DNA of 54,726 nucleotides from Nevskia sp. Its GTDB lineage: Bacteria; Pseudomonadota; Gammaproteobacteria; Nevskiales; Nevskiaceae. The stretch spans positions 1-54,726 of the forward strand of contig JADHNH010000011.1 of assembly GCA_016779605.1 (NCBI GenBank), read 5' to 3'. A program made the position numbers and the translations under genes. Position 1 is the stretch's first letter. The number at the start of each line of letters is the position of its first letter. This document shows, in pieces, positions 22,761-53,412 of the stretch. A model generated the notes under the pieces. It ran no database searches. It was given only the letters and a program-made list of their open reading frames with translations, and was not told where the DNA came from.

Positions 22761-22779
22761 GCTCGTCACGTCTTGCCCG

Positions 22780-25160: not shown

Positions 25161-25388
25161 TTAGTGTGTTGTGCGCCAGACGGATGAATGGAAACAAGCT
25201 ATTTTCGGTGTCGTTTGCGTCATTTTTATTACCGGGGCGCAATCCGGAAGTCTGATCCGTCGATTGCAGGGTGGATTCCGCAGCGAACCGGCCGCTCCGC
25301 GGTTACCATGCGCAGGCGTTCGAACTTCCACGCCGGCTCGCCACCCCGGCCAGCCCACCGCATGCCCCGCCCCGTTTCCGGCACACAC
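25161..25388. promoter_or_regulatory. Divergent promoter region of export lipoprotein and GT2 genes
   Basis: The stretch 25161-25260 is distinctly AT-rich compared with everything around it (for example CAAGCTATTTTCGG and CATTTTTATTACC), as expected for back-to-back promoters. I could not assign exact -35 and -10 boxes. The segment 25308-25388 could be the beginning of the GT2 gene if an upstream ATG is used. Confidence 0.55.
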
Positions 25389-26576: not shown

Positions 26577-26587
26577 CCGGGGCGCAG

Positions 26588-26605
26588 GCGCGGGAATTCC
26601 CGCGC
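26588..26605. repeat. 18-base perfect palindrome between convergent genes
   Basis: GCGCGGGAA/TTCCCGCGC has no spacer and lies 12 bases after the GT2 stop and about 120 bases from the convergent epimerase stop. It is a possible transcription end signal or a protein-binding site, with no T-run. The remaining bases up to 26722 hold no gene. Confidence 0.4.
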
Positions 26606-26722
26606 GGCACCGCAAAGGCCTGCATGCCTCGGAAAGCGCGAACAGCCGGCGCCACGGCGGGGTCTGTCCACCTTGCGGCCCGCCCGGAATGAAGCCTGGC
26701 GCCCGGCTCCGGCGGCGCGCAG

Positions 26723-27832: not shown

Positions 27833-27891
27833 GGCGCCCGGCGGCTCCGCGGGCGTGTATTTTGTAAGGCGATCGATGACAGTTTAATGAT

Positions 27892-32804: not shown

Positions 32805-35800
32805 CTAACGGATCTGGTCGGTCTCTTCGCCGGTGGGCTGTCCAAAGCCCACCGTCTCCACCGAGATGGTGGTGATCGCGGTGGCCGGCGGCTGGCTGGC
32901 CGCGACCTGGGTGGCGGTTTGCTCCACCGCCGCGCTGACCGCGCTGGCCACGCTCAGGGCGGCGGTGTCGACCACCCCGGTCGGCACGCCGCTCTCCTTG
33001 CCCTGCACCTGGATGTTGCTGGCATTGGCCACGCGGAAGGCGGCCACGTTCAGGCTGCCCGACACGCGGATGCCCGCCTCGCCGGCGTCCACCGTGCCGC
33101 GCGGGGCGACCAGGTCGGCGTTCCCGGAGGCCACGCCGGGCTTGGTCTGCAGCACGCCGATGCCGGCGCCGCTGACCTGCGACTTGGCGTCCACCACGCA
33201 GTAGTGGTCCAGGTCGCAGATGTACTGCGGCGGCGGGATTTCCGAGTTGGTCTTGGCGCCCTTGCCGGCGTTGATGTCGCCGTTGGAGCTCCAGATCAGG
33301 ACATCGCCGCCCTGCTCGGTGAAGATGCGGCTCTGCGCCAGCAGCGCGCTCTGGTCCGCGAAGATGCTGATGCTGCCCTGCTCCAGCGTCAGGATGCCCT
33401 GGTCGTTGGGGCCGATGCCGGAGGTGCTGACGCTGGCGGCCACCTGCGGCGGCGCCGCCGTGCTGCCGACCAGCACTTCGCCGCCCGGGCCCAGGATGTC
33501 GATGTTGCCGCCCTGCTGGGTCTGGATGGTGGAACCGCGCATGTCCAGGTAGCCGGTCGCCACCGGCGCCTTGGCGCCGTTGCTGCCGCCGGTCAGGTCG
33601 TTGGCGGTGTAGCCCAGCGCCGCGGGGAACAGCGTGTTGATCGCGGTGTAGCCGCGCGCGTACTGGCCGGCGTACGGCAGCGCCGCGTTGTTGAAGTCCA
33701 GGCCGGTGCGGTTGAGCACGTCGAGCAACACCTTGCCGGCGAACAGCTGCTGCTGCACCGCCGGCAGGCCCTGGAACACGCTCCAGGCGGCGGCCGGCGA
33801 CAGGTAGGGCGCGGTGCCGCCCTGGCCGCTCTGGGCGAGCTGGTCGGCCTGGTACTGCTCCACGAACGCGACAAGCTGCGGCCCGGTGCTGGAGGCGGGC
33901 GCGGTGACCGGCCTGCCCTGCGCGTCCTGGCCGACGATGGCCAGTCCGCCGGCGGTGAACGCGTAGCTGTAGTCGGGCACACCGGCGGAATCGACCGGCG
34001 ACGCCGCCACGTAGCTGTAGCTGCCGTCGGCGTTGCGGGTGATGCCCTCGACCGGGATCTGGCCGGCGCCGGAGCCGCGGTTGGCCGGGTCGATGTAGGC
34101 CTGCTCGAACCCGGTGACGGTCTGGCCGGCGGACTGGTAACCGCTCAAGTTCATGCCCGGGCCGATGCCGAACAGCACCGTGATGTTCGCCCCGGCGCGC
34201 TGCAGGTAGGGGTCGTAGAGGTTGCCGACCGTGTCGATGCCCGGATAAATCGCGCTGCTGCCCGCCGGCAGCAGGCCCAGGCCGAGCGCCTCGTTGGCCG
34301 AGGCGACCGGGCCCACGTCGCGCCCGGCCTCGACCAGCAGGTTGCCGATGCCGCCCACCGCGATCAGCGGCACCGGGTTGGCGGCCGACAGCGGCGCGTC
34401 GTAGATGTCGCGCCCGGCGGCGACCAGGGTGATGTCGGACGCGTACAGGTTGCGCCCGCGCAGGCTCAGGTTGACGACGTCGCGTCCGGCCTGGATTTGG
34501 ATCGGCTTGTCGCTGACCAGGGTGACCGGCTGCTGCAGCGCGGCATTGCCGTCCACGACGTCGCCGGCGAGGCTGTAGATGCGCGCCGGCTGCGTGTCCT
34601 GGGCGTGCAGCGGCGTCGCCGAGTTCAGCGTCTGCGGGTTGAACTCGCCCGCCGTCAGCGTGTTGAGATCCTGGATGTAGCTGCCCGGCAGGTTGCCCGC
34701 CGTGATCGGGTTCAAGGGCGAGGGCAGCACCGAGGCCGGCGCGTCGATCAGGCCGAAGAAGCTGGTCTGCTGGAACGGATTGACCGTGTGGTAGATCTGC
34801 ACGGTCTGGTCGGCGATCAGGCTCAGCTCGCCGGTCGCCGAGGGATAAAGTTCGCCGGCCTGCTCCACCGCGATGCCGCCGTTGAGCGCGGTCAGTTCCA
34901 GCGTCGCCGGCAGGATGAACGGGTCGCCGGTCAGGCTGCGCAGGCGCGCGGAGCCGAGCGAGAACTCGGCGGAAGGCAGCGCCAGGGTGTCGAAGGCGAT
35001 GTCGCCGCCGTTGGTCGACAGGCTGAACGAGGAGCTAGCGCTGTAGCTCTGCGAATCGAACCCGGCGTACAGGTAGGAAGGGTTGAACACCCCGCCGACG
35101 TTCGCGCCGCTGGCCGCGCTGACCTGCAGCTGCGCGTCCTGCAGCGCGAACAGCGTGGCCACCTGCCCGCCCTGCGGATTGACGATGTCCGCCGCGATGC
35201 TGCCGTGCGAGACGATGGTGCCGCTGCCCTTGGCGACGAAGTAGGTGCCGGACAGGATGCTGCCGCCGGCGGTGACGCTGAGGTTGCCGCCGCCGACGGT
35301 GACGACGGTGCTGCCGCCGCTGCCGTTGGAGCTCAGGTACCAGCTCGTCGGCAGCGATACGCCGAGGTCGCGGATGTTGCCGCCGGCGGCGATGTCGACG
35401 TTGCCGCCGACGCTCATCACGCCCTGGTCGAAGTTGCCGAAATTGATCGAGGAGCCGCTCGGCGTCGCCGCGCAGTTGGCGCCGCTGAAGACGCAGGCCG
35501 ACTGCAGCCAGGGCCACCAGTACTGGCTGAGGTTGGTGCCGGCGGTGCCGGTGCGGCTGCCGTCGTCGAGCACCTGCTCGATGCCGGTGATGTCGTTGCC
35601 GGCCTGGATCGAGACGTTGCCCGCGCCGTCGGCGTTGACGGTGCCGGAGTCGATCAGGTACGGCAGCTTGCCGGTGGCGGCGACCAGCGCGCTGGACATG
35701 GCCGGTGCCGGCGCGTTCGCGTCGGGCCTACCGGCGCTGTAGACCACGCCGGGCGCGACGGTGTCGAGCAGGGCGAAATCATGCGCCGCGGCGATGTCGA

Positions 35801-38800
35801 TGGAGCCCACGCCGGTACGCAGCAGGGTCGGCGTGTAGATCGTCACGCTGGCGCCGGTGCGCTTGTTCACTACGATGGTGTCGGCGCTGTGGCCGTCGAA
35901 GGTGACGTCGCCGCTGCCGGCCAGCGTTGCCGCGCCCGACAGCGCCAGCGGATCGGCGCTGGCCGAATCCGCGCCGGCGACGATGCGGTAAGACGTCGAA
36001 TCCGCGCCGGCGCCGTTCAGGCTGGCGCTGAGCAGGGACAGCGGATTGCCGCCGCTGTCCAGCGGCGAGATCGAGTTGCCGCCGCTGGTGGTCCTGTCGC
36101 CCACCGGGTTGCTGTACTGCCAGAAGCCATCGCTGATGCTGGCTTCGATGGCGACGTTGCCGGCGGCGCGCAAGCTCAGCACCGGCGCGATACCGCCCTG
36201 GTAGCGGTAGAACAGCTGGGTGTCGGAGGTGCCCGCGCCGAGGTTCCAGTTGGACAGCACGCTGATGTTGCCCGCCGGGTTCGACAGCTCGATGCCGGGA
36301 CGCGCGGTGAAGTGGGCGATGCCGAGCTGCGACAGCCGCGTGTCGAAGGCGAACGCAGCGCCGCCGTTCTCGACGAAGTCGACCAGCGTGGTCTGGTAGA
36401 AATTGAAGTGGTCGGCGTTGAACGCGACCGCGTTGCCGGCGGCGTCGAATGCGCCGGCCGGATCGACGATGCCGTCGAAGTGCAGCGCGCCCTGGCTGGC
36501 GTCGGTGGTGCTCCACTGCGCGTAGGCCTCCAGCGTGAACTCCCGCTGGCCGCCGATCTGCGCCGCCGGATCCACCCGCACGTTGACCTCGCCGTTTTCC
36601 AGCAGCGGCGCGATCAGGTGCACGGTACCGCCAGAAAGGCCGCCGGCGGAGCCGCCGCCAACGTCGATGCGCGCACCCGCGCCGATGGCGATGGTGCCGG
36701 AATTCGCCGCGGCGATGTTCTCATAGCCATAGGTGGCGTTGACCGCGCCGCCCGGGTCGCTGCCGGAAGTGCCGATGACGACGTTGCCGCCCAGCTGGTC
36801 CGGCGCCGATCCCGCGGCGTTCAGCGTGCCCTCGACATCGACGCCGCTGCGCCCGTAGAGCGAGATGTTGCCACCGGCCGCTCCCGAGGCGTCGATGGTG
36901 CCGAGGATAGCGACATTGCCGTCGCTCGCGGACGGCGCGCCGCCGCCGTCGGCGACCAGGGTCACGTTGCGGGCGGTCAGGCTGTTGCCTGCGGACAGCG
37001 TGAGGTTGCCCGCGCCGGTGCGCACATCGACGCTGTCGGTCACGCCGCCGGCGGTCAGCAGGGCGACCAGGGCGTCGAGGTCGGCGCTGCCGCCGACCTC
37101 GAGGCTGAACGAGCCGCCGAGGTAGCCGGCCGCGGCACCGCCCTTGAGCGTGCCCGCGAGCTGTGCCGAATGCTCCGGCGCCGCGATCTCCAGGCTGCCG
37201 GCGTTGCCGCCGGCGGCTGCCGCGAAGTCGAGCGTGGCGCCGGCCGGCACCACCACCTGGCCGTGATCCGCCACCAGGCTGATGGCGCCGGCATTGGCGT
37301 ACTGCACGGTGTCGTAGAACGTCTTGGCCAGCCCGTGCACGCTGATGCTGCCGGTGGCGCCCAGCCTCAGGTCGCCGGCGGTGGCGTGCAGCTTGACGTT
37401 GCCGCCGAGGGCCTCGACCGCGGTTTCCAGGTCCACCGTGCCGCCGGTCAGGCTGACCGAGCCGCCCAGAGGGGTTTCCGCCAGCGCAGCGCCGCCGGTC
37501 TGGCCCAGCACCGCCAGCGTGCCGGCAGTGCCCAGCGCGTAGGCGGAGCCGGCGTCGGCGATCAGCACCGGCGCCTTGAACGTGACCGCCGCGGTGCCGA
37601 AGTCGAAGCTGCCCCGGCCCTGCGTCACGATGCCGTCGGCCGCGGTGGCGGTGACGCTGCCGAAGCCTGCCGTGGAGGCCGCGCCGGCGGCGAAATCGAC
37701 CTGCTGCCCCTGCAGCGCCAGCGTGCCGGTGCCGGCGGTTGCCACAGGCGTGGGCGCCGCCAGCGCGTTGCCCAGGGTGAGGATGCCGGCCTGGATGCTG
37801 ACCGCCCCGCCGTCGCCGGAGAACGAGCCGGCGTTGAGCGTGAGGTTGCCGGCCAGGTTGATGTCCACGTTGCCGACGAAGTCCATGGCGCCGCGGCTGC
37901 TCAGGTCGATCACCTGGGCCTGCGCGAACTGCTTGAGCAGCTGCGGGCTGACCACCAGCCCGGGCACGCCGGCGCCGGTGCCGCCGAAGGTGATCAGCTG
38001 GCTGTCGGCGTCGATCTCGGGCGCGGCGAACTGCGCCGAGGCGTCGACCACGGTGTTGCCGCTGGAGTCCAAGGTCAGCGCGGCGCCGCCGCCGATCTGC
38101 GCGCCGGCGCCGATGCTCAGCAGGCCGGCGCCGGAGCCGCCGAGGTTGACGCGGCTGACGGTGACGGACGCACCGTCGGACACGCGCAGCAGGGCGCCGT
38201 TGCCGGTGGCGCCGCCGGTGCTGCCGATGACGATCGGCACATCCGCGGCCGCGGCGATGCTGCCCTTGGCCTGCACGATGCTGCCGGCGTCGACGGTCAC
38301 CCCGGCGCTGCCCACCGCGACGATCTCGGGAGCGGTCAGCGCATCGGCGCCGTTGTCGAACACCAGGTTGTCGGCCAGCGTGGTGATCTGGTCACCGCCC
38401 GCGGTGCGCAGGCGGGTGCCGCCCAGCAGCAGGCTGCTGGCATCCAGGCTGTCCAGTGCCGCCGCGCTGACCTGCACGTAACCCGCCAGCGGCGTGGCGC
38501 CGATGCCGGTGATCTGCAGGTCTTGCGAGGCGATGTCCACCTGCGCGCCAACGCCGCCGGGCGCGGCGCTGTCGAGCAGCGTTCCGCCCAGGGCGAGGGT
38601 GGCCGAGGCCGCCAGCTCCAGGTGTCCGGCGTCCTGCGGCAGCTGCGGCACCACGCTGGCGTTGTGCTGGGCAAGCTGGGTGAAGTAGTTGTCGGCGCTG
38701 GTCAGCGTGTATTGCGAATACTGCTGCCACACCGGCGACGACTGCACCATGAATGTGAGGTTGCGCGCCGACTTGGCGCCGTCCAGGGAGTCGACCAGCC

Positions 38801-41800
38801 GGCCCGCCAGCATCAGGGTGCCGTCGGCCAGCGTCTGCTCGGCCACCGGCACCATGTCGGTCGCCGCGGTGTCCTGCACCACGCGATAGGCGCCCGGCAG
38901 AGTCGCATACTTGCCCGGCAGCAGGGTGTAGACGCCGGCCGGCAGGCCGGGCGCGCCGGACAGGTAGACCGCCTGCCCGACCAGCGGATCGCCCGCAACG
39001 ATGCTCGGATCGTACGGCGCCAGGCCGCTGTAGCCGGGGATGATGGCGTAGACCCCGCGGGCGTCCGCGTACAGCGCAACCTGCTGCGCCGTGCCGCTGG
39101 CGTAAGACGTGTTGAACTGCGACAGCACGTCGCGCGAGCCGCCGGTGCCGGGCACCCACTCCTGCGCCTGCAGGTCGCCGCCGCCGGACAGGTCCACGGT
39201 GGCACCCTTGTCCAGGCTGACGCTCGCCGCGTCCACGATCACCAGCTTGGAGGGCGGCGCGGTGAGGTCGGCCGGCGTCGCGGTGGTGCTGGAACCCGAA
39301 TTGACGCCGCCGTTGTACAGCCAGTTCTGGCCGTCGACGGTCTGCCCGTACGGCACCGTGATGCCGTCGAGCGATACCGAGGTGACGCTGCCGGCGGTCA
39401 GCTCCACCGACTGCGTGGAGGTGACCGGCAGCAGCACCGTGGTTTCCTGGCCGCCGTTGCCGGTGGTCTGGAAGCTGAACAGCGACGCGGCCGCGGGATC
39501 GGAGGCGCTGCCCACGCCCAGCAGGATCTGGCCGTCGGGCGCGCGCAGCACGCCGCCCTGCACGATCTGGTCGGCGTCCACGATCAGGCTGCCGCCGGCG
39601 GAGATCGGCGTCTGCGCCGACGCCGAGTTGGCGTTGGACTGGAACGTCACCGTGGTCTGCGCCCCGCCGGTGTCGATGGCCTCGACGATGAACGTGTTGG
39701 CCGTCGCCGGATAGATCTGCGCGGCCTGGAACGTGAGGTTACCGGCGGTGAGCAGGAAGCCGGGGATCGCCACCTGCGGCGTGGTGTTGTTCGGGCTGTA
39801 GTAATCGTAAGCCGACGGGGTGACGAAACGAATGTCGTGGCTGGCGTCGAAGCTGGCCTCGCCGAAGTTGCGCAGCTCGAACTGGCCGCCGAGGTCGATG
39901 TAGTCGGCCTGCACCGTGAGCGTCACGCCGGCGGCGGTGGGCTGCAGCGTGGCCGGCTTATGGTAGATGCCCGAAGGCGCGTAGCCGTGCAGCGCCACGT
40001 AGGGCGCGTCCAGCACCACGTCGGAGGTGCCGGAAGCCGGCACGATGCCGCTCAGGGCCGAGGCGTTGATCGTGATCGAGCGGCCCAGGCTGAGGTCGAC
40101 GTTCGCGGCGAAGTCCACCGGCACCGGGGCGGCGGTGTTGCCGAGCGCCGGATCCACCCCCAGCACGAGGTTGTCGATGCCGGAGTTCTTCAGCACGGCG
40201 TCGTTGAAGCGCACCGTGCCGGAAGGCGCGCCCGCGCCGCCTTCGATCGACTGGCCCGGCTGCAGGGCGCCGGCGGGCAGCGCACCGCGGCCGTTCAGCA
40301 CCACCAGGTTCCTGGCGCCGCCGAAGCCGTTGCCCGGCTTGTTGGGCAGCGCGTTCTCCGCGAATACCGACAGGGTGCCGCCTTCGGCCTTGTCGCTGCC
40401 GCCCTTGGCGGACAGCCTGGCGTCGAACACCAGGCCGCCGCCGGCGCCGACGTTGATGCTGCCGGCGTTGCTCCAGACCTCGCGCCGGTTGTAGCGCGAC
40501 GAGCTGCCGGTGAACGGCAGGTCGAAAATGGCCTTGGCGCCGGACACGTCGATCCTTGCGCCGCGATCGCCGCCCGGCGTGCAGGTGCCGGCGTCGATGC
40601 AGCTCAGCGCGATGACGTAGCCGGTGTCGTCGGTCAGGGTGACGGTGCCGCCGTCGAGCACCTTGCCGGTCACGGGCACGGCGGATGTGCCGTCGACGTT
40701 CACCGGCGCCGCGTTGGGATTGATCAGGGCGATGCCGGACACGTCGAGCAGGCTGTCCGGACCCAGCCAGACCGATTTGCTGCCGCTGGAATAGCTCTGC
40801 GTCGCCGTCTGGCCGGGAATCGCCGCCAGGCCGCCCTGCGCCGAGTCCGCGGTCAGCGTGATCGAGCCGCCGTGGGCGACGATGGAGCCGTACACCGTGA
40901 CCTGGTTGAGCGAGCCCAGCGTCACCGCCGCGCCGGCATCGGCATCGATGGCGGCGTTCCGGCCGAGCAGCACCGTGCCGTTGACCGCATCGAGCCCGCC
41001 GAGGCTGGCGCTGCCCGCATAATCGGGGGCCGCCCCGCTGGTGGTGCGCCATGACAGGTAGTCGCCGGCATACAGGCTGAAGCCGGTGGCCTGGCGGTCG
41101 TAGGCGTCGAGCTGGCCCACCGTGACCAGCGCCCCGCTGGGGCTGGCCGTGCGCGTGCCGAACAAGCCGGTGCCGGTCGCCGCGGCGGCCAGCGCGTCGA
41201 CGTTGCCGACCAGGCTGGATTGGGTCGGGGTCACCACCGTGCCGGCGGTGATGGCGGCGTCGTATTCGGCGGTCAGCACGTAGGCGCCGAAGCCCTGGCC
41301 GGCAAAGAAATCCGCCGGGAGCTGCAGCGCCCAGTCGGGTGCGGCGGTCCCGGAGCCGCCGATCTGGATGCCCAGCGCGCGCAGGCTCAGCGTGCCGCCG
41401 CCGTCGAAGCCGAATCCGCGCAGCGTGCCGTCGAGCTGCAGGGTGCCGCCGGTGGGCATCGCCGTCGGCAGCGGCAGGCCTTCGGAGCCGAAGCCGGTGC
41501 CGTTGTTCGGCACATAGGTCTCCAGGGCGATGCTGCCGCCCTTGCCGGAGAGGACGCCGTTGGCGCTGGCCTGGAACTGCCCCGATGGCAGAACCCGTCC
41601 CCCGCTCGACACATCCAGCAGGCTGCCCTGCTGCAGGATCACCGAGCCGGTCGTATCCAGCACGCAGCCGGCGGCGGCGCCACAGGCCGGCGTGCCGGCC
41701 GGTACGGCGACCGAGTTTTGCAGCACCTGCAGGGCAATGCGGCCGCCGTTGATGTAAGCGGCGCCGGTCTGCTGATCGACGTCGAGGCCGGCGTCGTTGA

Positions 41801-44576: not shown

Positions 44577-44633
44577 GCTGCGGTCTCCCTTGGGCTCGGC
44601 GCTACCGCAAGTCGTGACACAGCCACGCCGCAG

Positions 44634-44648
44634 GCGTCCTTTGGACGC
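44634..44648. other. Short hairpin upstream of tpsA
   Basis: GCGTCC / GGACGC with a three-base loop lies about 60 bases before the tpsA start, in the 150-base gap after the small exported-protein gene, the longest gap inside the operon. It could affect processing or translation of the long tpsA message. No T-run. Confidence 0.3.
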
Positions 44649-44726
44649 TGATTTTCCGCCACGCCGTGTTACAGACGTTTGACGTTCCGATGACGCCCGC
44701 AGGCGCGCTGCGCTTCGCCGCGAATG

Positions 44727-45113
44727 CTAGTGGTGCGCAGGCGCAATCAGCGGATTGTTGTACTGGACCTGCGGCCGCTGCGGCACCACCGAGTGCCCGA
44801 ACGCATCGCCCAGGCGCTCGCGCGTTGCGGCCTGGGTATACAGCCCCTGTCCGGCCGGCGTTGCCGGCCTCGATCCGTCGACCACCGCCTGCAGCGCCGC
44901 GTTGCGCTGCGCCTGTTGGTCCGCCGAAGCGGACAGCTGCGCGTTGAGGCAGTTGAGGTCGGGGCCGCGGTGCCCGGCCGCTTCGACGCTGACGCAGCCA
45001 CGGCCGCCGGCAGCCGTTGCAGCGGAATCCGCGCCGCCGGCGAGCGCGGCCAGCGGCAACGCAGCGGCGGCCGCCAGTGCCGCCAGCCGCCGCTGCACCC
45101 GGCCCGCCATCAT
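44727..45113 (-). CDS. Small exported protein of unknown function
   Basis: 128 residues from ATG 45113, which overlaps the YbjN-like gene's stop (ATGA); a second ATG follows immediately. A signal peptide (LAALAAAAALPLAALAGG) is followed by a short region with two cysteines (GRGCVSVEAA, DLNCLNAQLS) that could form a disulfide. There is a Gln/Ala-rich middle and a C-terminus with PVQYNNP-like sequence (QVQYNNPLIAPAHH). I recognise no family. Its position directly before tpsA suggests a dedicated periplasmic or surface accessory for the exoprotein. Confidence 0.7.
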   Translation of the reverse strand: MMAGRVQRRLAALAAAAALPLAALAGGADSAATAAGGRGCVSVEAAGHRGPDLNCLNAQLSASADQQAQRNAALQAVVDGSRPATPAGQGLYTQAATRERLGDAFGHSVVPQRPQVQYNNPLIAPAHH

Positions 45114-45595
45114 TGCAAGCCCGGAGGCGCGGCGGGAGCCGCGCTGCGCCTTGCCGCGGCGGCGGCCGGCGCAGGCTGCTGCAGGTGCCGCACGAAATCG
45201 CGCAGGACGTGATCCCACAGTTCGATCTGTCCGCGCAGGAAGTTCTCGCTGACGCCGCCGGCCACCAGGGTGTCCATGGTCAGCACCAGCACGCGGTCGC
45301 GGCAATACAGCCGTGCGAAGCGCCGGTTCTGGTTCCACTGCTCGACCACCGCAGGCGACAGCTCGCCCTGCAGATCCACGCGGCAGTGGAAGGAGAAATC
45401 GAGGAAGCGCCCGGGCGCGCCCGGGGCCGCGTTGCCTAGCACCAGGAAGAAACCGATGCCCTGCGAGGCGCTGCGCACCTGCGGATGCTGCTCATGCTCG
45501 ACCACGGTGGCGCGGTAGCCGGCTTTCTGCAGCACCGCCGCCAGCTCCTCGGCGCTCACCGAAACGATCGCGGGAATCATCGTGGACTCGCTCAT
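45110..45595 (-). CDS. YbjN-domain (type III secretion chaperone-like fold) protein
   Basis: 161 residues from ATG 45595. No signal peptide. EELAAVLQKAGYRATVVEHEQHPQVRSASQGIGFFLVLGN, FLDFSFHCRVDLQGEL and VEQWNQNRRFARLYCRDRVLVLTMD fit the YbjN / PF10722 pattern (a type III chaperone-like fold) well. The C-terminal tail is Ala/Pro-rich. YbjN-type proteins are cytoplasmic and often bind partner proteins; here a chaperone for the giant exoprotein or for a secretion component is a plausible but unproven role. It is coupled to the next gene by an ATGA overlap. Confidence 0.75.
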   Translation of the reverse strand: MSESTMIPAIVSVSAEELAAVLQKAGYRATVVEHEQHPQVRSASQGIGFFLVLGNAAPGAPGRFLDFSFHCRVDLQGELSPAVVEQWNQNRRFARLYCRDRVLVLTMDTLVAGGVSENFLRGQIELWDHVLRDFVRHLQQPAPAAAAARRSAAPAAPPGLQ

Positions 45596-45618
45596 GGCCG
45601 CCTTGCGCACCCCGTCCG

Positions 45619-46296
45619 TCAGTGGGCCGCCGATGCCGGAGCCGGTGCGCCGCCGGGCGGCGCCACCGTGGCGTCGACGATGCGGCCATGATACGCCTGC
45701 GCGGCCTTCTCCAGCTCCACCCGGTGCAGCCCGGTGACCGGCTCGGCGTCGGCAATCGCCCCCCACAGCCCCTTGCTCTTGTAGCGTTGCAGCAGCTCGT
45801 TGCTGATGTCGACCAGGCTGGCGTTGTCGGCGCTGCAGGCCTTGAGCCGGGTGTCGGCGTCCTGGAACTGGGCCTCGAACTTCTTGGCGTCGGCGCCGCG
45901 CGTCCGCGCCGCTTCGGCCGCATCCTGGTAGCCCTTCTGCCACTGCGCCAGCGCCTGCCTGGCCGCATCGAGCTGCTGCTGCAGGGTCGCCGCCTGCTGG
46001 GTGCTGGCCGCGAGGTCCCGCTGCAGCGCCGCGAGCTGCTGCTGTTGCTGCGCGCTGGGCTTGGCGGCTTCGGCCTGCGCCTGCTGCGCCGCGGCCTGCT
46101 GCGCCTGCGCGTCCAGCTTGCCCTTGAGGTCTGCGTTGTCGTCCAGCGCCTGGCGCAGCTGCAGGGTGGTCTGGCGCAACTGGTCGCGCAGCCGCTCCTC
46201 GACGGTCTGGGCCGGCGCCGGCGCGCTGGTCGCGAGCGCCGCGCCGAGCAGCAGCACCCGGCAGGCGCGATGCATGAACAGTTTCACGTCAGCCAT
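45619..46296 (-). CDS. Periplasmic coiled-coil protein
   Basis: 225 residues; the ATG at 46275 (MHRACRV) is an alternative start. Signal peptide RVLLLGAALATSAPAPAQ, then a long heptad-rich helix (about 32-170) dominated by Gln and Ala (LDAQAQQAAAQQAQAEAAKP, LQRDLAASTQQAATLQQQLD). A C-terminal globular part (LVDISNELLQRYKSKGLWG, AEPVTGLHRVELEKAAQAY) follows. This end recalls a family of short periplasmic coiled-coil proteins in secretion operons, but I cannot name it. It probably spans part of the periplasm and may link the energy-transducing complex with the outer-membrane components. Confidence 0.75.
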   Translation of the reverse strand: MADVKLFMHRACRVLLLGAALATSAPAPAQTVEERLRDQLRQTTLQLRQALDDNADLKGKLDAQAQQAAAQQAQAEAAKPSAQQQQQLAALQRDLAASTQQAATLQQQLDAARQALAQWQKGYQDAAEAARTRGADAKKFEAQFQDADTRLKACSADNASLVDISNELLQRYKSKGLWGAIADAEPVTGLHRVELEKAAQAYHGRIVDATVAPPGGAPAPASAAH

Positions 46297-46311
46297 CCTC
46301 GCAGGCGCTTG

Positions 46312-48099
46312 CTAAAAGCGCGAATTCAGGTCGAGCTGCACCACATCGATCGCCAGCGGCGGCCCGGCGATCTCGGTGCCGCTGAACCAGCGCGCGCTGA
46401 ACCAGGCGTTGTGCGTGAAGCCCAGGTTGCCGACCAGGTGATAGCCCTTGGCGTTGGTGCCGCCGATATAGAAGTCCGGATCGTTGAAGGCGTCCACCAC
46501 CGAGTCGGACTCCACGTGCCGGTAGCCGCCGGTCACCGCCCACTGCCAGCGCTCGATCGTCGCCGGGTAGCCGATGCGCACCTGCACCAGGTAGGCCTGG
46601 TTGCCGCCGATGTAGGGCGCCTGGCAGCCGCTGCCGCTGCAGCCGCCGTAGTTGTTGACCGGATTGAGCGACAGCACGTGCCCTTTCTTGAAGGCAATGT
46701 TGTCGGCGAAATCGGCGTCGGCAACCAGGTGCAGCGGCCCGCCGAGGCCGTAATCGAGGTTGACCACCGCGTTAACGATGCGGAACGGGCTGGCCAGGCC
46801 GAAATACTGGAATTGCGGGTCGGTGGGCTGTTGCAGCAGCAGGTTGCGGATGGCGAACAGCGTATTGCCCTTCTGCATGAAGGCCGAGCGGCTGTCGTCG
46901 GAGTTGCACGAGAACGCGCTGGTCGGCGCCTGGCACGGCGAGGACAGCTCGCCTTCCAGGTGGTAGAAGTCGTAGAACGCCACGCCGCCCTTGCCCTTGA
47001 GCTTGTCGGCAACGCTCCAGTCCGCGCCCAGCTGCGCGGCGAACAGCCACTTGTCGCGGCTGCCGACCTTGACCGAATCGGTCTGCGGGAAGTCCAGCGC
47101 TGTGTTCTCCACCGAGAAGGCGCCGACCGTGGCGTACGGGCGCAGGTCGTCGGTCAGCTCGTAGTGGTACTGCGCCACGAAGCCGTCGAAGCCCAGGTCC
47201 CAGTACCACATCATCGAGGTGGACTGGAACGGATTGGGCATGCGGCCGCCCATCAGCACCAGGCCGTCCAGCGGACGGTAGCTCAGGTAGGCGCGGTCCA
47301 CCACGAAGGTGTACTTGTTGAAGTCGTTGCCCAGCGTCTGGTTGGTCGACACCGGGTTGACGTTGTTGCCGGTGGAGAAGCGCAGGCTGGCGGTGAGGTC
47401 GTCGGCCACCTTGGCGTCCATGCCGACGTGCAGACTGATGCGCGGCTGCTCGCGGTTGACCGTGGTGTCGAACAGCGGCGGCAGCGGCTGGTTGGTGGCG
47501 GTCTGGCTGACGTTGAACGGCGCACCGGTGTTGATCGCGGAAAAATTGATCAGGAACGGGTTGTTCTGCGAGTCGTACAGGTCGAACTCCTCGCGCAGCC
47601 GCAGGTCGCCGTAGAAGCTCAGCCGCTTGACCCATTCCGGGAAGGAGTTGGGCAGCGCCCAGTTTTCCGCCTTGGCGGTGGCGATCACCTCCTGCTTCAC
47701 CTCGTCGCGGATCTTCTGCTTTTCGCTTTCCGGCAGGTAGATCACGCGCACGCGGCCCTTGACGTCGGGCGCCGGCGCGGCGCCTTGCTGGGCGGTGGCG
47801 GTGGGGGCCGCGGCGGGCGCCGGCTGGCGAGCCGCCGCCTGCTCGTCCTGCAGCCGCTTGATCAGCTTGGCGGCGTCGTCCTTGGACAGCGCGTTGTGTT
47901 CGGCCAGCAGCCGGATCAGTTCTTCGGTCACCGTCTCCTGCGGCGCCGCCGCGGCTGGCGCGGCAGCGGCCGGCGGCGCGGCGGAAGGAACCGTGTCGGC
48001 CAGCGCGGCGCTCGCGCAGGCCCACCCGGCCGACGCGATCAGCGTGTGCGCGAGTAGACGCCGGCGCGAAGCGCCGGACCTGGGCCGGGGAAGGAACAT
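46312..48099 (-). CDS. Putative porin (Porin_5 type outer-membrane barrel)
   Basis: 595 residues from ATG 48099, with GGAG ten bases upstream. Signal peptide through about residue 35 (AGWACASAALAD). An Ala/Pro-rich linker and a helical segment (VTEELIRLLAEHNALSKDDAAKLIKRLQ) precede the barrel. The barrel begins RLSFYGDLRLREEFDLYDSQ and includes FVVDRAYLSYRPLDGLVLMGG and RMPNPFQSTSMMWYWDLGFDG, then VQLDLNSRF at the C-terminus. That layout matches the Porin_5 family, which is often annotated 'putative porin'. An SLH-like or helical N-terminal region is typical. It could be the outer-membrane partner of the TonB gene upstream. ETVTEE at residues 55-60 is only superficially TonB-box-like. Confidence 0.85.
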   Translation of the reverse strand: MFLPRPRSGASRRRLLAHTLIASAGWACASAALADTVPSAAPPAAAAPAAAAPQETVTEELIRLLAEHNALSKDDAAKLIKRLQDEQAAARQPAPAAAPTATAQQGAAPAPDVKGRVRVIYLPESEKQKIRDEVKQEVIATAKAENWALPNSFPEWVKRLSFYGDLRLREEFDLYDSQNNPFLINFSAINTGAPFNVSQTATNQPLPPLFDTTVNREQPRISLHVGMDAKVADDLTASLRFSTGNNVNPVSTNQTLGNDFNKYTFVVDRAYLSYRPLDGLVLMGGRMPNPFQSTSMMWYWDLGFDGFVAQYHYELTDDLRPYATVGAFSVENTALDFPQTDSVKVGSRDKWLFAAQLGADWSVADKLKGKGGVAFYDFYHLEGELSSPCQAPTSAFSCNSDDSRSAFMQKGNTLFAIRNLLLQQPTDPQFQYFGLASPFRIVNAVVNLDYGLGGPLHLVADADFADNIAFKKGHVLSLNPVNNYGGCSGSGCQAPYIGGNQAYLVQVRIGYPATIERWQWAVTGGYRHVESDSVVDAFNDPDFYIGGTNAKGYHLVGNLGFTHNAWFSARWFSGTEIAGPPLAIDVVQLDLNSRF

Positions 48100-48180
48100 G
48101 TCGTCAACGCTCCGTAGCTGCGATTCGATAATCCGGCTGCGGCACGCGCGCCGGGGGAAACAGGGCCTGGATGCAAGGCA

Positions 48181-48867
48181 TCACGACGAGGTGACCGTCA
48201 GCACCACCGGCTGCTGCATGTCCTTGGGCGGCGGCGTGGTGATCCTGGAGGCGCCGCCCAGGGTGTTCTTCAGCAGCTTGTCGAGGTCGGCGTTGCCGGT
48301 GGAGCGCAGCAGCTCGACGCGCTCCAGGCGCCCGTCGGCGGCGAGCCACACTTCGATCGGAACGCGGTACGGCTGGCTGGTCAGCTTGCGCTGCCGCTCG
48401 ATGGCTTCGCGCAGGTGGTTCTCGATCATCGCCGAGTACCAACCGAAGCGCGTGCCGCCGCCGCTGCCGTCGCCGCCGACGTAGTCGCCGCCGCCGGGGC
48501 GGCCCTCGAGGCCGAAGGCGTCGCCGGGGCCCTGCCCCTGCGCGTCCAGCGCCGGCGGACCGGGCGGCGTCTCGGTCTTGGGCGTCGGCGGCTGGTTGAT
48601 CTGCCGCTCGGCCTTGAACTCGGGCGGCTTTTCCTTGGGCTGCTGGATTTGCTCCTTGGGCGGCGGCGGGGGCGGTGGCGGCGGCAGCGGCTGGATCAGG
48701 CGCAGCTGCACCACGTCGGGCACGTTCTTCTTCGGCACGCCCGACATGCCGGTGACCAGGTTGTAGATCAGCGCGGCGGCGCCGCCGCCGACCAGCAGCA
48801 GCAACAGGCCGGTGCCGAATGGACGCCAGGGGCTGCGCTTTTCTTCGAATGCGAGTACTGCAGGCAT
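48181..48867 (-). CDS. tonB: TonB-family energy transducer
   Basis: 228 residues from ATG 48867, chosen because GAGGTGA precedes it by six bases; an ATG at 48873 overlaps the exbD stop. One N-terminal membrane helix (FGTGLLLLLVGGGAAALIYNLV). A Pro-rich periplasmic segment (PLPPPPPPPPPKEQIQQPKEKPPE) and a Gly-rich stretch follow. The C-terminal TonB-like domain reads YSAMIENHLREAIERQRKL ... VPIEVWLAADGRLERVELLRSTG. TonB links ExbB/ExbD to outer-membrane receptors. No TonB-dependent receptor gene is nearby, which is unusual and suggests a dedicated partner in this operon. Confidence 0.9.
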   Translation of the reverse strand: MPAVLAFEEKRSPWRPFGTGLLLLLVGGGAAALIYNLVTGMSGVPKKNVPDVVQLRLIQPLPPPPPPPPPKEQIQQPKEKPPEFKAERQINQPPTPKTETPPGPPALDAQGQGPGDAFGLEGRPGGGDYVGGDGSGGGTRFGWYSAMIENHLREAIERQRKLTSQPYRVPIEVWLAADGRLERVELLRSTGNADLDKLLKNTLGGASRITTPPPKDMQQPVVLTVTSS

Positions 48868-48872
48868 GGGCA

Positions 48873-49277
48873 TCACCTCACGAGTTTCTTGGTGACCAGT
48901 CCGAGCTGGGTGATATTCAGCTCGCCCAGCAGGGCGAGCACGTTGACGACGTTCTGGTACTGGGTTTGGCCGTCGCCGCGCACGATGACCGGCAGGTTCG
49001 GGTCCTGCGCCTTTTTCTGCCGCAGGCGGTCCGCCAGCTCGTCCATCGTCACCGGCACCGCGTCCATGAAGATCTTGCCGTCGTTGGCGATGGTGATCGC
49101 CACCGTCTTGGGCTTGGACAGGCTCGGCTGGTCGCTGGCCTGCGGCAGGTTCACCTTGATGCCCTGCACCGCCGCGGTGGTCATGATGATGAAGATCACC
49201 AGCAGCACGTAGGCCAGGTCCAGCATCGGCGTGATGTTGATGTCGTCGTACGGCTTGTCTTCGGACTGGGCTTGCAT
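48873..49277 (-). CDS. exbD: ExbD-family biopolymer transport protein
   Basis: 134 residues from ATG 49277, after GGAGCGCCCC; the extension to 49325 overlaps the ExbB fusion and is rejected. Single N-terminal membrane helix with the conserved proton-pathway aspartate (INITPMLDLAYVLLVIFIIM). A periplasmic domain with TVAITIANDGKIFMD and VIVRGDGQTQYQNVVNVLALL follows, as in ExbD/TolR. It lies 16 bases behind the ExbB fusion. Confidence 0.93.
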   Translation of the reverse strand: MQAQSEDKPYDDINITPMLDLAYVLLVIFIIMTTAAVQGIKVNLPQASDQPSLSKPKTVAITIANDGKIFMDAVPVTMDELADRLRQKKAQDPNLPVIVRGDGQTQYQNVVNVLALLGELNITQLGLVTKKLVR

Positions 49278-49293
49278 GGGGCGCTCCGGTGTC

Positions 49294-51204
49294 CTATTGG
49301 CCGGCCAGCTCGCCGAGCTCGGCAAGCTCGTCGGGCGAGTTGTAGCTTTCGGCCATGCGCGTCACCAGCGCGTCGACGAACACGTGCATCTGCGCGGTGA
49401 TTTCCTTGATGCGCGTGAGCAGGTAGTTGTAGCCAAACAGCGCCGGGATGGCGACGAACAGGCCGGCGACGGTGGCCACCAGGGCCGCGGCGATGCCGGG
49501 GGCGATGGCGTTGACGTTGACGTCGCCGGCGGCGGCGACCGCCGCGAAGGTGATCATCACGCCCACCACGGTGCCGAGCAGGCCGATGAACGGGCCGCCG
49601 CTGATGGCGATGGTCAGCAGCACCATCAGGCGGTTGAGCGCCTGGGTCTCGGTGATCAGCGTGGAATCGACCGACGCGCGGATCGCCTCGATGGACTGCT
49701 CCGACAGCACGGCCGGCGCCTTGCCGTTCTTCGGCGTCTTGCGCGCGTTCAGGCGCTGGCTCAGTTCCTCCGAGCCGGCGTTGAACAGCTTCAGCAGCGG
49801 CGAATTGCCCACCAGCCGCCGGGTGCGCTCGGAAATCTCGGTTCCGGCCACCGCGGCGGTGCCGCCCACCAGGTGGCGCAGCGCGCCGAAGTCGCCGCCG
49901 GTGGAGCGGAACATCTCCATGAACACCCGGTTGGCGCGGGTCACCAGCTGGATCTGCCCGGCCTTGCGCACCATCACGATCCAGCTGACCGCGGCCATCA
50001 CCAGCAGGATCGAGATGATCACCCAGCCGTCCAGCGTCACCGAGTGCAGGATGATGCCGACATAGCCGGAGCTCCAGGTCGACATCGCCTCGTCGCCGCC
50101 GAACTGCACCAGCTTGTCGGCGGTGCCCTGGTTGCCGGCGAACAGCTGGATCGTCGCCGGGTCCAGCGCCGCCTTGGCGATCTCCAGCTCGTCGATGCCG
50201 CCGCGGAAGCCGGCGGTCGCCGGCGTGCCGGCCTGCCCGCCGAGGCTGGCGGCGGCCGCCAGCGCCGGCAGCGGCCCGGCCAGCACCGGGCCGGGCTCGC
50301 CATCGACGTACAAAGTTGCCTGCGGGCTCGCCGGCGCCGCCGCGACCAGCGCCAGGTGGTGCCAGCCGCCGGCCGCCAGCGCCGCGCCGGCGGGCGACTG
50401 GCGCAGCGCGCCGGAATCGTCCGCCAGCGCCACGTAGGGCGCGCCCTTGGCCAGGCCGATCACAAGCGCGCGCGCGCCGTCGTGCAGCGCGTAGATCACC
50501 GCATCCTGGTCCGCCGCGGCCGGCTTGATCCAGGCGGACCAGGTCAGCGGCGACCCGGCCGGCACCGCCAGCGAGGGCGATGCCGGCAGGCCTATCGCGG
50601 TCTGCCCGTCGAACTTGGCGGCGTTGCCGATCAGGCCGCTTTCGTCGACCTGGAAAGCCGAGGTGGCGTTGTTGCGGTAGCCGGTGGCGTCCGCCGCCGG
50701 AGTGCCGCGCTCGCCGAAATGGTAGACCAGCGTCTGCGCCGGGCCGTAGGTTTCGCGGGCGTCGCCTTCGGCCACCGCTTTCGGATTGCCGTAATACAGC
50801 CACAGGCTGGTCGGCGCGCCGGCCTTCAGGCGCGGCACCTGCACCCAGACGAAGGCGAGGTTGAACACCGAGTCGAATTTTTCGACGTGGAACTTGAGCG
50901 GGGTCTTGTCGTCGTCGGCGACGAAGCGGATATCCGAGCCGTCGGGGTTGGCGTCGGAGAACTTGAACACGCCGTCATGCAGGCGCACCAGCACCGGCAC
51001 GTCGGCGAGGTCGGCCTTCAGGTCGGCGCCCTTGGGGCTGGCGTCCAGCGTGATCTGCTTGCGGTACGACCAGTCGTGGCTCCACCACGCCGAAGCCGAC
51101 ATCGGCGCCAGCAGCAGCCCGGCGGCCAGCGCCGCCACCGCAGCCGCGGGCCGCCGGAACATCCTGCCCAAGCGCGCAAAATCCAAAGCCGCCGGAAGTT
51201 TCAT
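49294..51204 (-). CDS. DUF2341-LamG-ExbB fusion (MotA/TolQ/ExbB proton-channel protein)
   Basis: 636 residues from ATG 51204 (AGAGAGCGAG upstream), 11 bases after tpsB. Signal peptide to about 39 (AALAAGLLLAPMSASA). DUF2341 spans about 40-140 (WWSHDWSYRKQITLDAS ... SLWLYYGNPKAVA). A LamG/concanavalin-like domain spans about 200-358 (PLTWSAWIKPAAADQDAVIY, GGIDELEIAKAALDPATI). Then come membrane helix 1 (about 390-410), a cytoplasmic loop, and the ExbB core with GGPFIGLLGTVVGVMITFAA and GIAAALVATVAGLFVAIPA. Topology agrees with ExbB (N-terminus outside), so the sugar-binding-type domains would sit in the periplasm on top of the proton channel. An ORF continues upstream to 53238 across tpsB but is shadow. 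Confidence 0.88.
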   Translation of the reverse strand: MKLPAALDFARLGRMFRRPAAAVAALAAGLLLAPMSASAWWSHDWSYRKQITLDASPKGADLKADLADVPVLVRLHDGVFKFSDANPDGSDIRFVADDDKTPLKFHVEKFDSVFNLAFVWVQVPRLKAGAPTSLWLYYGNPKAVAEGDARETYGPAQTLVYHFGERGTPAADATGYRNNATSAFQVDESGLIGNAAKFDGQTAIGLPASPSLAVPAGSPLTWSAWIKPAAADQDAVIYALHDGARALVIGLAKGAPYVALADDSGALRQSPAGAALAAGGWHHLALVAAAPASPQATLYVDGEPGPVLAGPLPALAAAASLGGQAGTPATAGFRGGIDELEIAKAALDPATIQLFAGNQGTADKLVQFGGDEAMSTWSSGYVGIILHSVTLDGWVIISILLVMAAVSWIVMVRKAGQIQLVTRANRVFMEMFRSTGGDFGALRHLVGGTAAVAGTEISERTRRLVGNSPLLKLFNAGSEELSQRLNARKTPKNGKAPAVLSEQSIEAIRASVDSTLITETQALNRLMVLLTIAISGGPFIGLLGTVVGVMITFAAVAAAGDVNVNAIAPGIAAALVATVAGLFVAIPALFGYNYLLTRIKEITAQMHVFVDALVTRMAESYNSPDELAELGELAGQ

Positions 51205-51215
51205 GAACTCGCTCT

Positions 51216-52868
51216 CTAATAGTTGGTCCAAACGCGGAAGACGATCCGGCTCGACCAGGCCCGGGTGGCCGAGCCGGCCAGCAGCGGGTCGGCCCAGTCG
51301 AGCACGCCGTTGACGTACGAAAACAGCCTGAGGTTCACGCCGGTGCCGACGCTCATCAGGTTGAACCGGCTCTGCTGGTCCGGCAGCGGATCGCGCAGCA
51401 GCAGCTGGCTGCCGTCGACGAAGGCGAACAGGCGGAAGTCCTGCACCGGGCTGCCCCAGCTGCCCAGCTTCAGGTTCTCGCCCCAAGACGGGCCGCGCAC
51501 TTCGGCGCTGGCGTTGAAGCCGTAGTCGCCGAGGGTCTCGGCTTCCAGGTAGCCGCGCACGGTATCCATGCCGCCGGCGCTGAACTGCTCGTTGGAGATC
51601 AGCGGCTGGTCGGTGATCTGGCCGGCGAAACGCACGAATCCCTGCACGCCGTGGGCGAAGTCCTCGGTGTGGGAAACGTCGCCGCGCAGGTAGAACATCT
51701 GGCCGCGCGCATTGGCGCGGTTGAGCTGGATGACCTCGGTGGAACTGCCCAGCCGCGGCGAGGCCAGCACCATGCTCAGGTCCGCCTGCGTCACCGCCCC
51801 GTCGGCGCGGAACAGGCCGGAGTACCCCAGGGTGAACGGGAAGTACTCGACCGGCGTGTTGAAGCTCGACCCGCCCAGCGACGTCAGGGTTTTGAAGTGC
51901 TTGTAATCCATGCCGAAGGTCACGGACGGGTAATAGCCCTCGCCGCCCGGCAGCTGCAGCACGCCGCGCACGCCGTACATCTGGCCGTTGCCGAGCACGT
52001 TGGTGCCGCCCACGGTGGCGACGTTGCTGTCCGACTTCAGCGCGTTGAACAGCAGGCTGAACCGGCTGCCGCCGAAGCGCGCCAGGTACGAGCCGAACAG
52101 GACGCGCGCGTCGCTCTGGTTTTGCGGCGCGGTCTGGTAGGACACCGACAGGCTGTGACCGCTCTGCCACAGGTTGTCGTAGGACAGCGTGCCCAGGGTG
52201 CGCAGCTCGCTGGTGTCCTGGCTGCGGCGGTTGTTGATTTCGGCCGATGCGTGCAGCGGCAGGTGGTCCTCCACCACCAGGTCGATGTCGACGGTGCCCG
52301 GAGTGGCGCCGGCCTTCAGCGCCGGGGTCACGCGGCGGTCCGGCTGCCCGTTCAGGGCGACGATGTCCTTCTGCACCCGGTTGAAGTCCGGAACCGAGCC
52401 TTCGGCCAGCGAAGGCGCTTCCAGCTTGATCTGGTCGATGGAGTGATACTTGGAGCCGACCACCGTCAGGTGCCCGACCCGCTCCTCGGTCACTTGCAGC
52501 ACGACCACGCCGTCGTGCACGGTCTGGCGCGGGATGGCCACGGTGACGGTCTTGTAGCCGTGGTCGCGATAGGCTTCCTCGAGCGCCGCGCGGGCGTCGT
52601 CCACGTCCTTGAAGGTGCGGCTTTCGCCCAGGAACGGCGCGACGATCGCGTCGATGGCGGCGGCATCGAGGACGGTGTTGCCGTCGACGTCGATTTCCCA
52701 CAAGTCGATGCGGCTGGCCGGCGTCGCTTTTGCCGCAGCCGGCGCAGCTTTTGCCGCAGCCGGCGGGTTGGCCGCCGGCGGCGCGGCGCGGGCGCTGCCG
52801 GCAGCCAGGCACATGGAGATGCCGGACACGGCGCATGCCATCACTATTGACAGACGGACCCGGCTCAA
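51216..52868 (-). CDS. Two-partner secretion outer-membrane transporter (TpsB, FhaC/ShlB type)
   Basis: 550 residues from a TTG at 52868, preceded by CTGGGGATAACGCGCT and giving a basic n-region before the signal peptide (MSRVRLSIVMACAVSGISM ... SARAA). An ATG at 52841 would leave no basic n-region. An Ala/Pro-rich stretch is followed by POTRA domains (IDLWEIDVDGNTVLDAAAID; VHDGVVVLQVTEERVGHLTV). The barrel begins near EDHLPLHASAEINNRRSQ and includes FSAGGMDTVRGYLEAE, whose VRGY is the lid-lock motif of TpsB/BamA. The chain ends in RIVFRVWTNY, where a terminal aromatic residue suits an outer-membrane barrel. First gene of the operon that ends with tpsA, 8 kb downstream. Confidence 0.93.
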   Translation of the reverse strand: MSRVRLSIVMACAVSGISMCLAAGSARAAPPAANPPAAAKAAPAAAKATPASRIDLWEIDVDGNTVLDAAAIDAIVAPFLGESRTFKDVDDARAALEEAYRDHGYKTVTVAIPRQTVHDGVVVLQVTEERVGHLTVVGSKYHSIDQIKLEAPSLAEGSVPDFNRVQKDIVALNGQPDRRVTPALKAGATPGTVDIDLVVEDHLPLHASAEINNRRSQDTSELRTLGTLSYDNLWQSGHSLSVSYQTAPQNQSDARVLFGSYLARFGGSRFSLLFNALKSDSNVATVGGTNVLGNGQMYGVRGVLQLPGGEGYYPSVTFGMDYKHFKTLTSLGGSSFNTPVEYFPFTLGYSGLFRADGAVTQADLSMVLASPRLGSSTEVIQLNRANARGQMFYLRGDVSHTEDFAHGVQGFVRFAGQITDQPLISNEQFSAGGMDTVRGYLEAETLGDYGFNASAEVRGPSWGENLKLGSWGSPVQDFRLFAFVDGSQLLLRDPLPDQQSRFNLMSVGTGVNLRLFSYVNGVLDWADPLLAGSATRAWSSRIVFRVWTNY

Positions 52869-53412
52869 AGCGCGTTATCCCCAGAATTCCACGTGCGACC
52901 CATCGACAATCCGGGTCGCTTGGGCGCTCAAATCCACAGTCGGCCGCCCCTAGCGGAAGCGTCGGCGGAACGCTGCCGCGTCCGTGTTGGTGCGGAAAGC
53001 CGCCGGCGTTTCCCTCCTTCGCCGCCCTTGTCGATTGCCAAGGACGCCCAAGGCCTTCCGCGGCAATGTGAACTGCCCGGGCAAGGTACCGGAGGGACAT
53101 TGCAGATCGATGAAACCGGGATTGCCGCGGGCGCCCGGCAGTGGTCTCGGGCGCGGCACCGTACCGGCGGAACCAGGCTTGTGAAAAAGCCCGATCCGGC
53201 TCAGGGGGATGGATCGAAACGACGCCCGGCCGCGGCATTGCACCGCGGCTGGCGGACGAGCCGGAGGCTATTTATTGCCGCAAAGCGACCGATCCCGATG
53301 CGAGCCGTCCCGGCGCATGACGCGGCCATGCGCCGGGGCGGTCGCAAAACTGCCTTCAGGCACGGCCGGCGCTCCCTGCCCGGGTAAGGCCGGCGGCCTG
53401 TGCTGCGCTATC
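52869..53412. promoter_or_regulatory. Upstream region of the tpsB operon
   Basis: 544 bases between the quinone-oxidoreductase gene and tpsB, both minus strand. ORFs in this stretch have unnatural composition (very high Arg/Ala) and no ribosome binding site. It should hold the operon promoter and the end of the oxidoreductase transcript. I could not define a promoter; a TTGAGC at about 52927-52932 on the minus strand lacks a convincing -10 partner. Confidence 0.4.

Follow-up and report, generated by a model that had tools for sequence, protein, structure and literature searches.

A contig of 54,726 nucleotides from Nevskia sp. (GenBank assembly GCA_016779605.1, contig JADHNH010000011.1; this whole stretch is referred to below as the window) carries a two-partner secretion (TPS) locus in which the transporter gene tpsB and the gene of a giant exoprotein, tpsA, are joined by genes for a complete Ton/Tol-family motor (ExbB, ExbD and a TonB-like arm), a Porin_5 barrel and an exported coiled-coil protein. 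The locus is a member of the already published Pdt-type (DUF3739-type) TPS arrangement, and its TpsB, TpsA, motor, porin and coiled-coil protein very probably make up one co-inherited envelope machine. We favour, at a little under an even chance, the reading that the proton-motive force acts on the TpsB/TpsA/porin assembly of that machine, for export, folding or surface retention; which part the motor would pull is something we infer. The genes and features are the following:

51216..52841, minus strand: tpsB, ShlB/FhaC-type outer-membrane transporter (Pfam POTRA_2, PF08479, and ShlB, PF03865)
49294..51204, minus strand: exbB fusion, with signal peptide, DUF2341 (50713-50943), LamG (Laminin_G_3, 50146-50589) and MotA_ExbB (49387-49707)
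48873..49277, minus strand: exbD (Pfam ExbD)
48181..48873, minus strand: tonB-like gene, with transmembrane helix, Pro-rich and Gly-rich linkers and a TonB/TolA-type C-domain (Pfam TonB_2, PF13103)
46312..48099, minus strand: Porin_5 barrel (563.9 bits, profile positions 2-535 of 535), with a periplasmic N-terminal part at about 47626-47943 that includes VRVIYLPE (47728-47751)
45619..46296, minus strand: exported coiled-coil protein in the position of PA0697 (Pfam: sub-cut-off coiled-coil matches only)
45110..45595, minus strand: YbjN family protein in the position of PA0698 (Pfam YbjN)
44727..45113, minus strand: small exported protein with two cysteines kept among relatives, without a Pfam family
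32805..44576, minus strand: tpsA, 3923 residues, with TPS domain (43440-44087; PF05860, TIGR01901) and DUF3739 (32979-33311)
32841..32873, minus strand: C-terminal strand motif of TpsA, TTISVETVGFG, 11 residues from the protein end
30679..32568, minus strand: PstS-like secreted binding protein (PBP_like_2, PF12849), 629 residues, 236 nt beyond tpsA on the same strand

Open reading frames and Pfam matches agree on nine minus-strand genes at 32.8-52.8 kb, in the place and order (tpsB to tpsA) given by an earlier reading of the sequence alone (the original prediction), and the gaps calculated from the coordinates (11, 16, -1, 81, 15, 23, -4 and 150 nt, from tpsB to tpsA) agree with its range of -4 to about 150 bases. 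The gene that it called TonB does encode a TonB-type C-domain, although the family is TonB_2, the PF03544 matches lying elsewhere in the genome. The start of tpsB is probably the ATG at 52841, in place of the TTG at 52868. For the PstS-like gene the ATG is at 32568; a start at 32454 had been used in the flank, neighbour and Pho-box scans.

The same genes form the pdt locus of Pseudomonas aeruginosa, pdtB-exbB2-exbD2-tonB4-PA0696-PA0697-PA0698 with pdtA (PMC2729926, PMC7035377, PMC4971064), whose TonB module is termed "still uncharacterized" in print. In Llamas et al. (2009) the VreI regulon includes the TPS pair PA0690/PA0692, PA0693/PA0694 (homologues of exbBD) and PA0696-PA0699; the authors report the association from other bacteria as well (PMC2729926). 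These three publications rule out an unprecedented arrangement, and the operon cannot be regarded as unusual in the sense of the original prediction. The core order from tpsB to the YbjN gene is common to the window and the pdt locus (according to a table in PMC7035377, and in the Pseudomonas loci of the survey described below), both have a DUF3739-type TpsA, and the DING-like genes lapA/lapB bear locus numbers just before that of pdtA, where the window has its PstS-like neighbour. The window differs in that its tpsA lies after the motor genes, in that its small two-cysteine protein occupies the position of PpiC (PA0699), and in lacking both a phdA between the genes and a clear Pho box. Pfam matches for 30 of the flanking frames included no hxc or vreAIR gene, and no search aimed at VreA, VreI or VreR was made. 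In P. aeruginosa one promoter is described for phdA, pdtB, exbB2D2, tonB4 and PA0696-PA0701, and a separate one for pdtA alone (PMC4971064). As pdtA has its own promoter and the longest gap in the window (150 nt) precedes tpsA, a single transcript across all nine genes is doubtful. A scan of positions 44000-53600, from the first part of tpsA to beyond tpsB, gave no sigma-70 promoter site and one minus-strand terminator-like site (53205-53190), upstream of tpsB.

To survey relatives we used the porin as anchor, taking the best 80 of 357 relatives, a selection biased towards close relatives and the genera Pseudomonas and Burkholderia; the nearest to the window porin come from Hydrocarboniphaga effusa and a Sinobacteraceae metagenome-assembled genome (53 and 55% identity). 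The marker profiles were built from the same 80 loci, and the window proteins alone as queries gave the same order. TpsB, ExbB, ExbD, TonB, porin and coiled-coil genes follow one another on one strand in 76/80 loci, the remaining four (L039, L056, L063 and L070) being interrupted by contig ends. A strict test gave 74/80, as L044 and L057 failed through an over-long start call and were counted as ordered by eye. The YbjN gene comes next in 71 of the 76 ordered loci (exceptions: L042, L083, L094, L108 and L113). A recurrence of this extent exceeds chance, and the check on gene order suggested with the original prediction came out in its favour: far from tpsB/tpsA never being linked to exbBD-tonB-porin in relatives, the linkage holds. 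TonB receptors, of which the original prediction saw no gene here, are not part of the set: a profile made from nine receptor genes of the window genome matched the flanks of only 2/80 loci, both on the opposite strand.

Co-occurrence in whole genomes gives the same picture. Among 200 genomes of the phylum, DUF2341 was found in five, DUF3739 in five and Porin_5 in six; the same five genomes carry DUF2341, full-length Porin_5 and DUF3739, the sixth Porin_5 (genome G154) being a partial match of 19 bits. Among 274 genomes of the class, a sample that shares members with that of the phylum, DUF3739 occurs in 19 (18 over cut-off), full-length Porin_5 (>400 bits) in 19 and both in 18. The two discordant genomes are G298, 85% complete, with porin and without DUF3739, and G413, which has no porin and whose DUF3739 match, interrupted by one stop, stays below the cut-off at 25.1 bits. 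Ordinary TPS is much wider, as ShlB is present in 121 of the 274 genomes versus 19 for DUF3739. As a control, 25 genomes with other TPS and without DUF3739 were compared by hand for at least 53 ShlB sites. Only 1/53 listed sites has ExbD within 10 kb on the same strand (G205) and one has it on the opposite strand (G429); most control genomes are in many contigs, so that links across contig ends would have been missed. The G205 site (L234, contig C11) has a different ShlB-type transporter of 667 residues beside ExbB and two tandem ExbD, and may represent a second, independent case of a TPS-like barrel paired with a motor.

At least five gene arrangements of the cluster are seen: 1) tpsA follows the porin-side genes in the window, L037-L040 and both loci of G155; 2) tpsA lies between tpsB and exbB in G019, G217, G312, G342, G348, G428 and G450, and also in G232, where about 13 kb of other genes follow tpsB; 3) tpsA stands ahead of tpsB in the Pseudomonas loci with an upstream DUF3739 end and in G094, G285 and G403; 4) in G438 tpsB-tpsA and the motor genes diverge, and in G329 they converge at a distance of about 14 kb; 5) the order is exbB-exbD-tonB, tpsB, tpsA, porin and coiled coil in G208. 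The cohesion of the set despite moves of tpsA or of the motor genes favours one machine. It also bears on the view that these genes are linked without joint function, as members of one regulon (low phosphate, or VreI in Pseudomonas) clustered only for shared control. Such control is indeed reported for P. aeruginosa, but the set holds across classes, in varying order and in genomes without a visible Pho box, and DUF3739 and full-length Porin_5 are absent together from other genomes, so we think this view very unlikely.

Several loci deserve mention in their own right. The system is present twice, complete each time, in genome G155, which belongs to a different class of the phylum (L030/L031 and L032/L033). 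In L095 (Pigmentiphaga) tpsB is preceded by a DUF3739 end, and a second TpsA begins downstream of it, giving two exoproteins for one machine. L094 comes from a metagenome-assembled genome with the label Chthoniobacterales (Verrucomicrobia); the start of a TpsA accompanies tpsB and the motor, porin and coiled-coil genes there, which represents either a transfer across phyla or a binning error.

The motor has its own evolutionary identity. In a tree of 54 ExbB rows, the cluster ExbBs (28 rows, the window being entered twice) form one clade with 100/100 support. Together with gene order and co-occurrence, this supports the proposal that a dedicated, complete Ton/Tol-family motor belongs to this TPS type. 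The position of the third-helix Glu, which we take to be a feature of the E. coli ExbB and TolQ, is Ala in 28/28 cluster rows, whereas Glu occupies it in 11/26 other rows; L246 also has Ala. In the porin-anchored loci the Glu position is likewise Ala in 78/78, and the ion path is kept, with its Thr in 78/78, the second Thr in 78/78 and the ExbD Asp in 79/79. The SxxxH motif, presumably a mark of the TonB and TolA helix in E. coli, occurs within the first 60 residues of 2/81 TonB-like proteins and is absent from 79/81. The motor thus resembles Tol-Pal (TolQ-TolR-TolA) and ExbB-ExbD-TonB in its subunit types, in its ion-path Thr/Thr/Asp and in the fold of the arm's C-domain, and differs from both in its separate ExbB clade, the Ala for Glu, the DUF2341-LamG part and the arm without SxxxH. 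That part follows the signal peptide and precedes the motor helices, so an ExbB pentamer would bear five DUF2341-LamG copies as a periplasmic collar. In a survey of MotAB-type proteins, DUF2341 appears as an additional N-terminal domain, its role unknown, on the A subunits of generic ion transporters, which thereby share it with the window ExbB; the available part of that report makes no link to TPS (PMC12505986). Elsewhere in the genome there are three TonB_C (PF03544) genes and nine TonB-receptor barrels, and ExbD matches number six with the operon copy; general Ton function therefore need not rest on the operon set. The nine-gene set contains no TonB-dependent receptor gene; since the genome encodes receptors at other places, the motor could act on one of them from a distance.

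Among NCBIfam models, tolQ and tolR give the ExbB and ExbD parts better scores than exbB and ExbD do, all under the model cut-offs, and by score the A subunit lies closer to TolQ than to ExbB (113 versus 71 bits). The predicted structure of the TonB-like C-domain (predicted local distance difference test, pLDDT, about 95) has the TonB/TolA fold, with TolA domains among its best fold matches. These likenesses, along with the identity of the porin's best fold match, OmpM1, which is named an outer membrane attachment porin, would suit a tether like Tol-Pal, in which motor and arm hold the outer membrane, through the porin N-terminus, to the inner membrane under the load of the giant protein, with no powered export or uptake. 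The cluster ExbB clade is, however, separate from the TolQ-like rows of the tree, neither TolB nor Pal is among the Pfam matches of the nine genes, and tree and scores do not reveal function; we consider a tether unlikely.

The transporter carries a first possible mark of what the motor might act on. The window TpsB has CdiB and FhaC as its best solved relatives, and the type Vb markers are present: a TPS secretion domain in TpsA, and POTRA domains with a ShlB/FhaC barrel in TpsB. A plug helix ahead of POTRA1 is typical of type Vb, though perhaps not defining. From signal peptide to POTRA1 there are a median of 11 residues (range 0-44; 76/77 measured), compared with 51.5 (33-77; 14/16) in controls, which were 16 plus-strand frames from 30 ShlB loci; cleavage was placed by a crude rule. 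By this measure the typical N-terminal plug helix is not found.

A second candidate mark is the C-terminus of TpsA, where a low-complexity linker is followed by a strand motif of approximate form S-h-h-T/S-V-x-V-L-G-F-G in 44/45 distinct proteins, the last running off its contig (L210). The search pattern was loose, the window and L220 were scored by eye, and L204 and L217 duplicate L203 and L216. The motif seems to resemble a TonB box in pattern only. A C-terminal disulfide anchor, which we take to be a feature of HMW1, is rejected, as no column has Cys in at least 30% of 47 rows. At the other end of TpsA, about 100 Ala-rich and probably helical residues separate the signal peptide from the TPS domain in this branch (window residues about 55-160, by eye); the stretch is also present in L025, L026, L030, L037-L040, L042, L083, L086, L094, L095, L101 and L108, and absent, again by eye, from the TpsA of L203, L206, L220 and L229.

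The porin was modelled with a mean pLDDT of 80.1 (residues 1-52 and 96-114 below 50) as an open barrel of 16 long strands by our own count, with N-terminal helices and no plug; its fold matches after OmpM1 are other porins. That the porin might itself be the TonB receptor is rejected on this plugless model. In 18 other genomes of the class only partial Porin_5 matches were found (best 118.5 bits), none of those listed starting before profile position 142. As the listed weak matches lack the first 141 profile positions, the N-terminal part seems to be a special feature of the porin linked to TPS.

Relatives of the small exported protein, which is encoded near the porin-side genes, were found in 38 fetched loci, in varying positions, with two conserved Cys, a PQRP-like end and no Pfam family.

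From these features a sequence of steps can be proposed. TpsA would cross the outer membrane by way of a TpsB without the usual plug helix, and the TpsA C-terminus, with linker and short strand motif, would remain at or in the periplasm. The C-domain of the TonB-like arm could then take up a strand, either the TpsA tail or the VRVxYVPE segment of the porin, and the ion-driven motor would pull or hold that strand so as to finish export, folding or surface retention. At the surface the product would probably act as a scavenger, perhaps of phosphate, with the PstS-like protein. The TpsB/TpsA side is preferred as the motor's target because it bears the marks of the clade, the missing plug segment and the tail motif, and because energy is not required for an open porin. 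In its fullest form, the proposal is a proton-driven TPS subtype in which a separate Ton/Tol motor lineage replaces the TpsB plug, its arm gripping either the strand tail of TpsA or the porin at its periplasmic N-terminus; the inner membrane would thereby both power and gate export, tethering or release. This we hold as tentative and rather unlikely in all its parts. There is a precedent for Ton-dependent secretion of protein in Oar/PopC of Myxococcus xanthus, where the Ton system is required for outward passage (PMC6434023), with the difference that Oar belongs to the TonB-dependent transporters, having a plug and a TonB box, and not to TPS.

A number of points weigh against powering by the proton-motive force. 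A review of type V secretion states that no gradient powers translocation (PMC5422565), and P. aeruginosa insertion mutants in tonB4 and PA0696 had wild-type virulence in VreI-induced zebrafish infection (PMC2729926); the part of that paper available to us holds no secretion test of these mutants, and our literature search found no test of the motor's role in TPS. Synteny and correlated distances between cluster proteins (0.94-0.99) are a matter of co-inheritance, not of mechanism. The comparison of the tail motif was confined to DUF3739-type TpsA, Foldseek placed the TonB-like model in the TonB/TolA/HasB fold with a best E of 2.3e-3 and none below 0.001, and contact of TonB with the TpsA tail, TpsB or porin is conjecture from single-chain models. 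The PstS-like partner and phosphate control in Pseudomonas, finally, point equally to uptake. Of the powered reading as originally predicted, then, the dedicated motor and the exclusion of receptors from the set have stood, and the claim of unusualness has not.

In the uptake reading, a surface-held TpsA filament and the PstS-like protein gather phosphate or phosphate-bearing molecules, which the porin admits while the motor powers or gates entry, TPS export being energy-free. The PstS-like gene adjoins tpsA or tpsB in 17/18 assessable genomes (not assessable: G265, G298, G342 and G411, the last with a 44-bit match on the other strand; G295 has a PstS-like fragment only, at a contig end). In Pseudomonas fluorescens SBW25, psp (DING) is followed by the gene of a 4083-residue haemagglutinin, and both products are secreted in low phosphate (PMC2225411, PMC5082522), a condition under which PdtA, PA0696 and PA0698 are reported among the most enriched proteins of P. 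aeruginosa (PMC9769906). HxuCBA of Haemophilus influenzae, in which a TpsA/TpsB exoprotein works with a Ton-dependent step of haem uptake (HxuA/HxuB/HxuC; PMC5422565), offers a precedent; Hxu, however, has a true TonB receptor and an operon without motor genes, whereas the window has a motor and a plugless porin, modelled as open and so probably not a TonB receptor. Against a link with the partner, the PstS-like gene was found in 3/80 porin-anchored loci, although these porin-centred stretches reach the DUF3739 end in 26 and the TpsA N-terminus in 11, so that the tpsA neighbour is seldom visible. The one exception among assessable genomes, G155, lacks a PstS-like neighbour at both of its system copies. 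Many of the PstS-like proteins are divergent (of 10 neighbours, four match PF12849 and two exceed the cut-off); long and short forms are related with an hhalign probability of 93.8%. Pho boxes are convincing only in L025, L026 and L027 and not evident in most tested loci; in the window a weak one precedes tpsA (uncorrected p 0.025), whereas the PstS-like gene has none (p 0.54). General Pho control is not supported beyond those three loci.

Because of the PstS-like partner, scavenging is nearly as natural a role as release, folding or positioning of TpsA driven by the proton-motive force, and the partner together with the Hxu precedent places uptake close behind the preferred reading, as an appreciable possibility of roughly one chance in three. 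Action of the proton-motive force on the TpsB/TpsA/porin assembly nevertheless remains our preference. Type V secretion has been described as needing neither a gradient nor a high-energy compound, yet one TPS clade occurs, in the samples examined, only with its own motor and porin; if the preferred reading is true, some secretion long held to be unpowered is in fact powered. The locus offers clean genetic tests of what drives and ends TPS export, and probably gives a context to DUF2341 on motors, to DUF3739, to Porin_5 and to the ExbB2/ExbD2/TonB4 of P. aeruginosa, for none of which was a tested function found in the literature examined. We report as new its anatomy: the short segment of TpsB ahead of POTRA1, the tail motif of TpsA, the plugless porin with its special N-terminus, the Ala-bearing ExbB clade and the PstS-like neighbour.

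Beside the PstS-like gene, a second exported protein of about 270 residues was listed in several loci (L203:340-1209, L213:10906-11730, L228:9165-10025, L202:5732-6529, L206:5893-6696 and L208:10040-10825; L227:2489-3043 is listed separately). These proteins include one PEP-CTERM match over cut-off and one weak match, and close to the G428 cluster there is an exosortase-like gene. In the window, polysaccharide genes occupy positions 8764-28000 beside the operon (glycosyltransferases, pieces of an ABC-2 exporter, SLBB/Poly_export and an epimerase), and in G312 a Poly_export gene and a weak Wzz match are found near the cluster.

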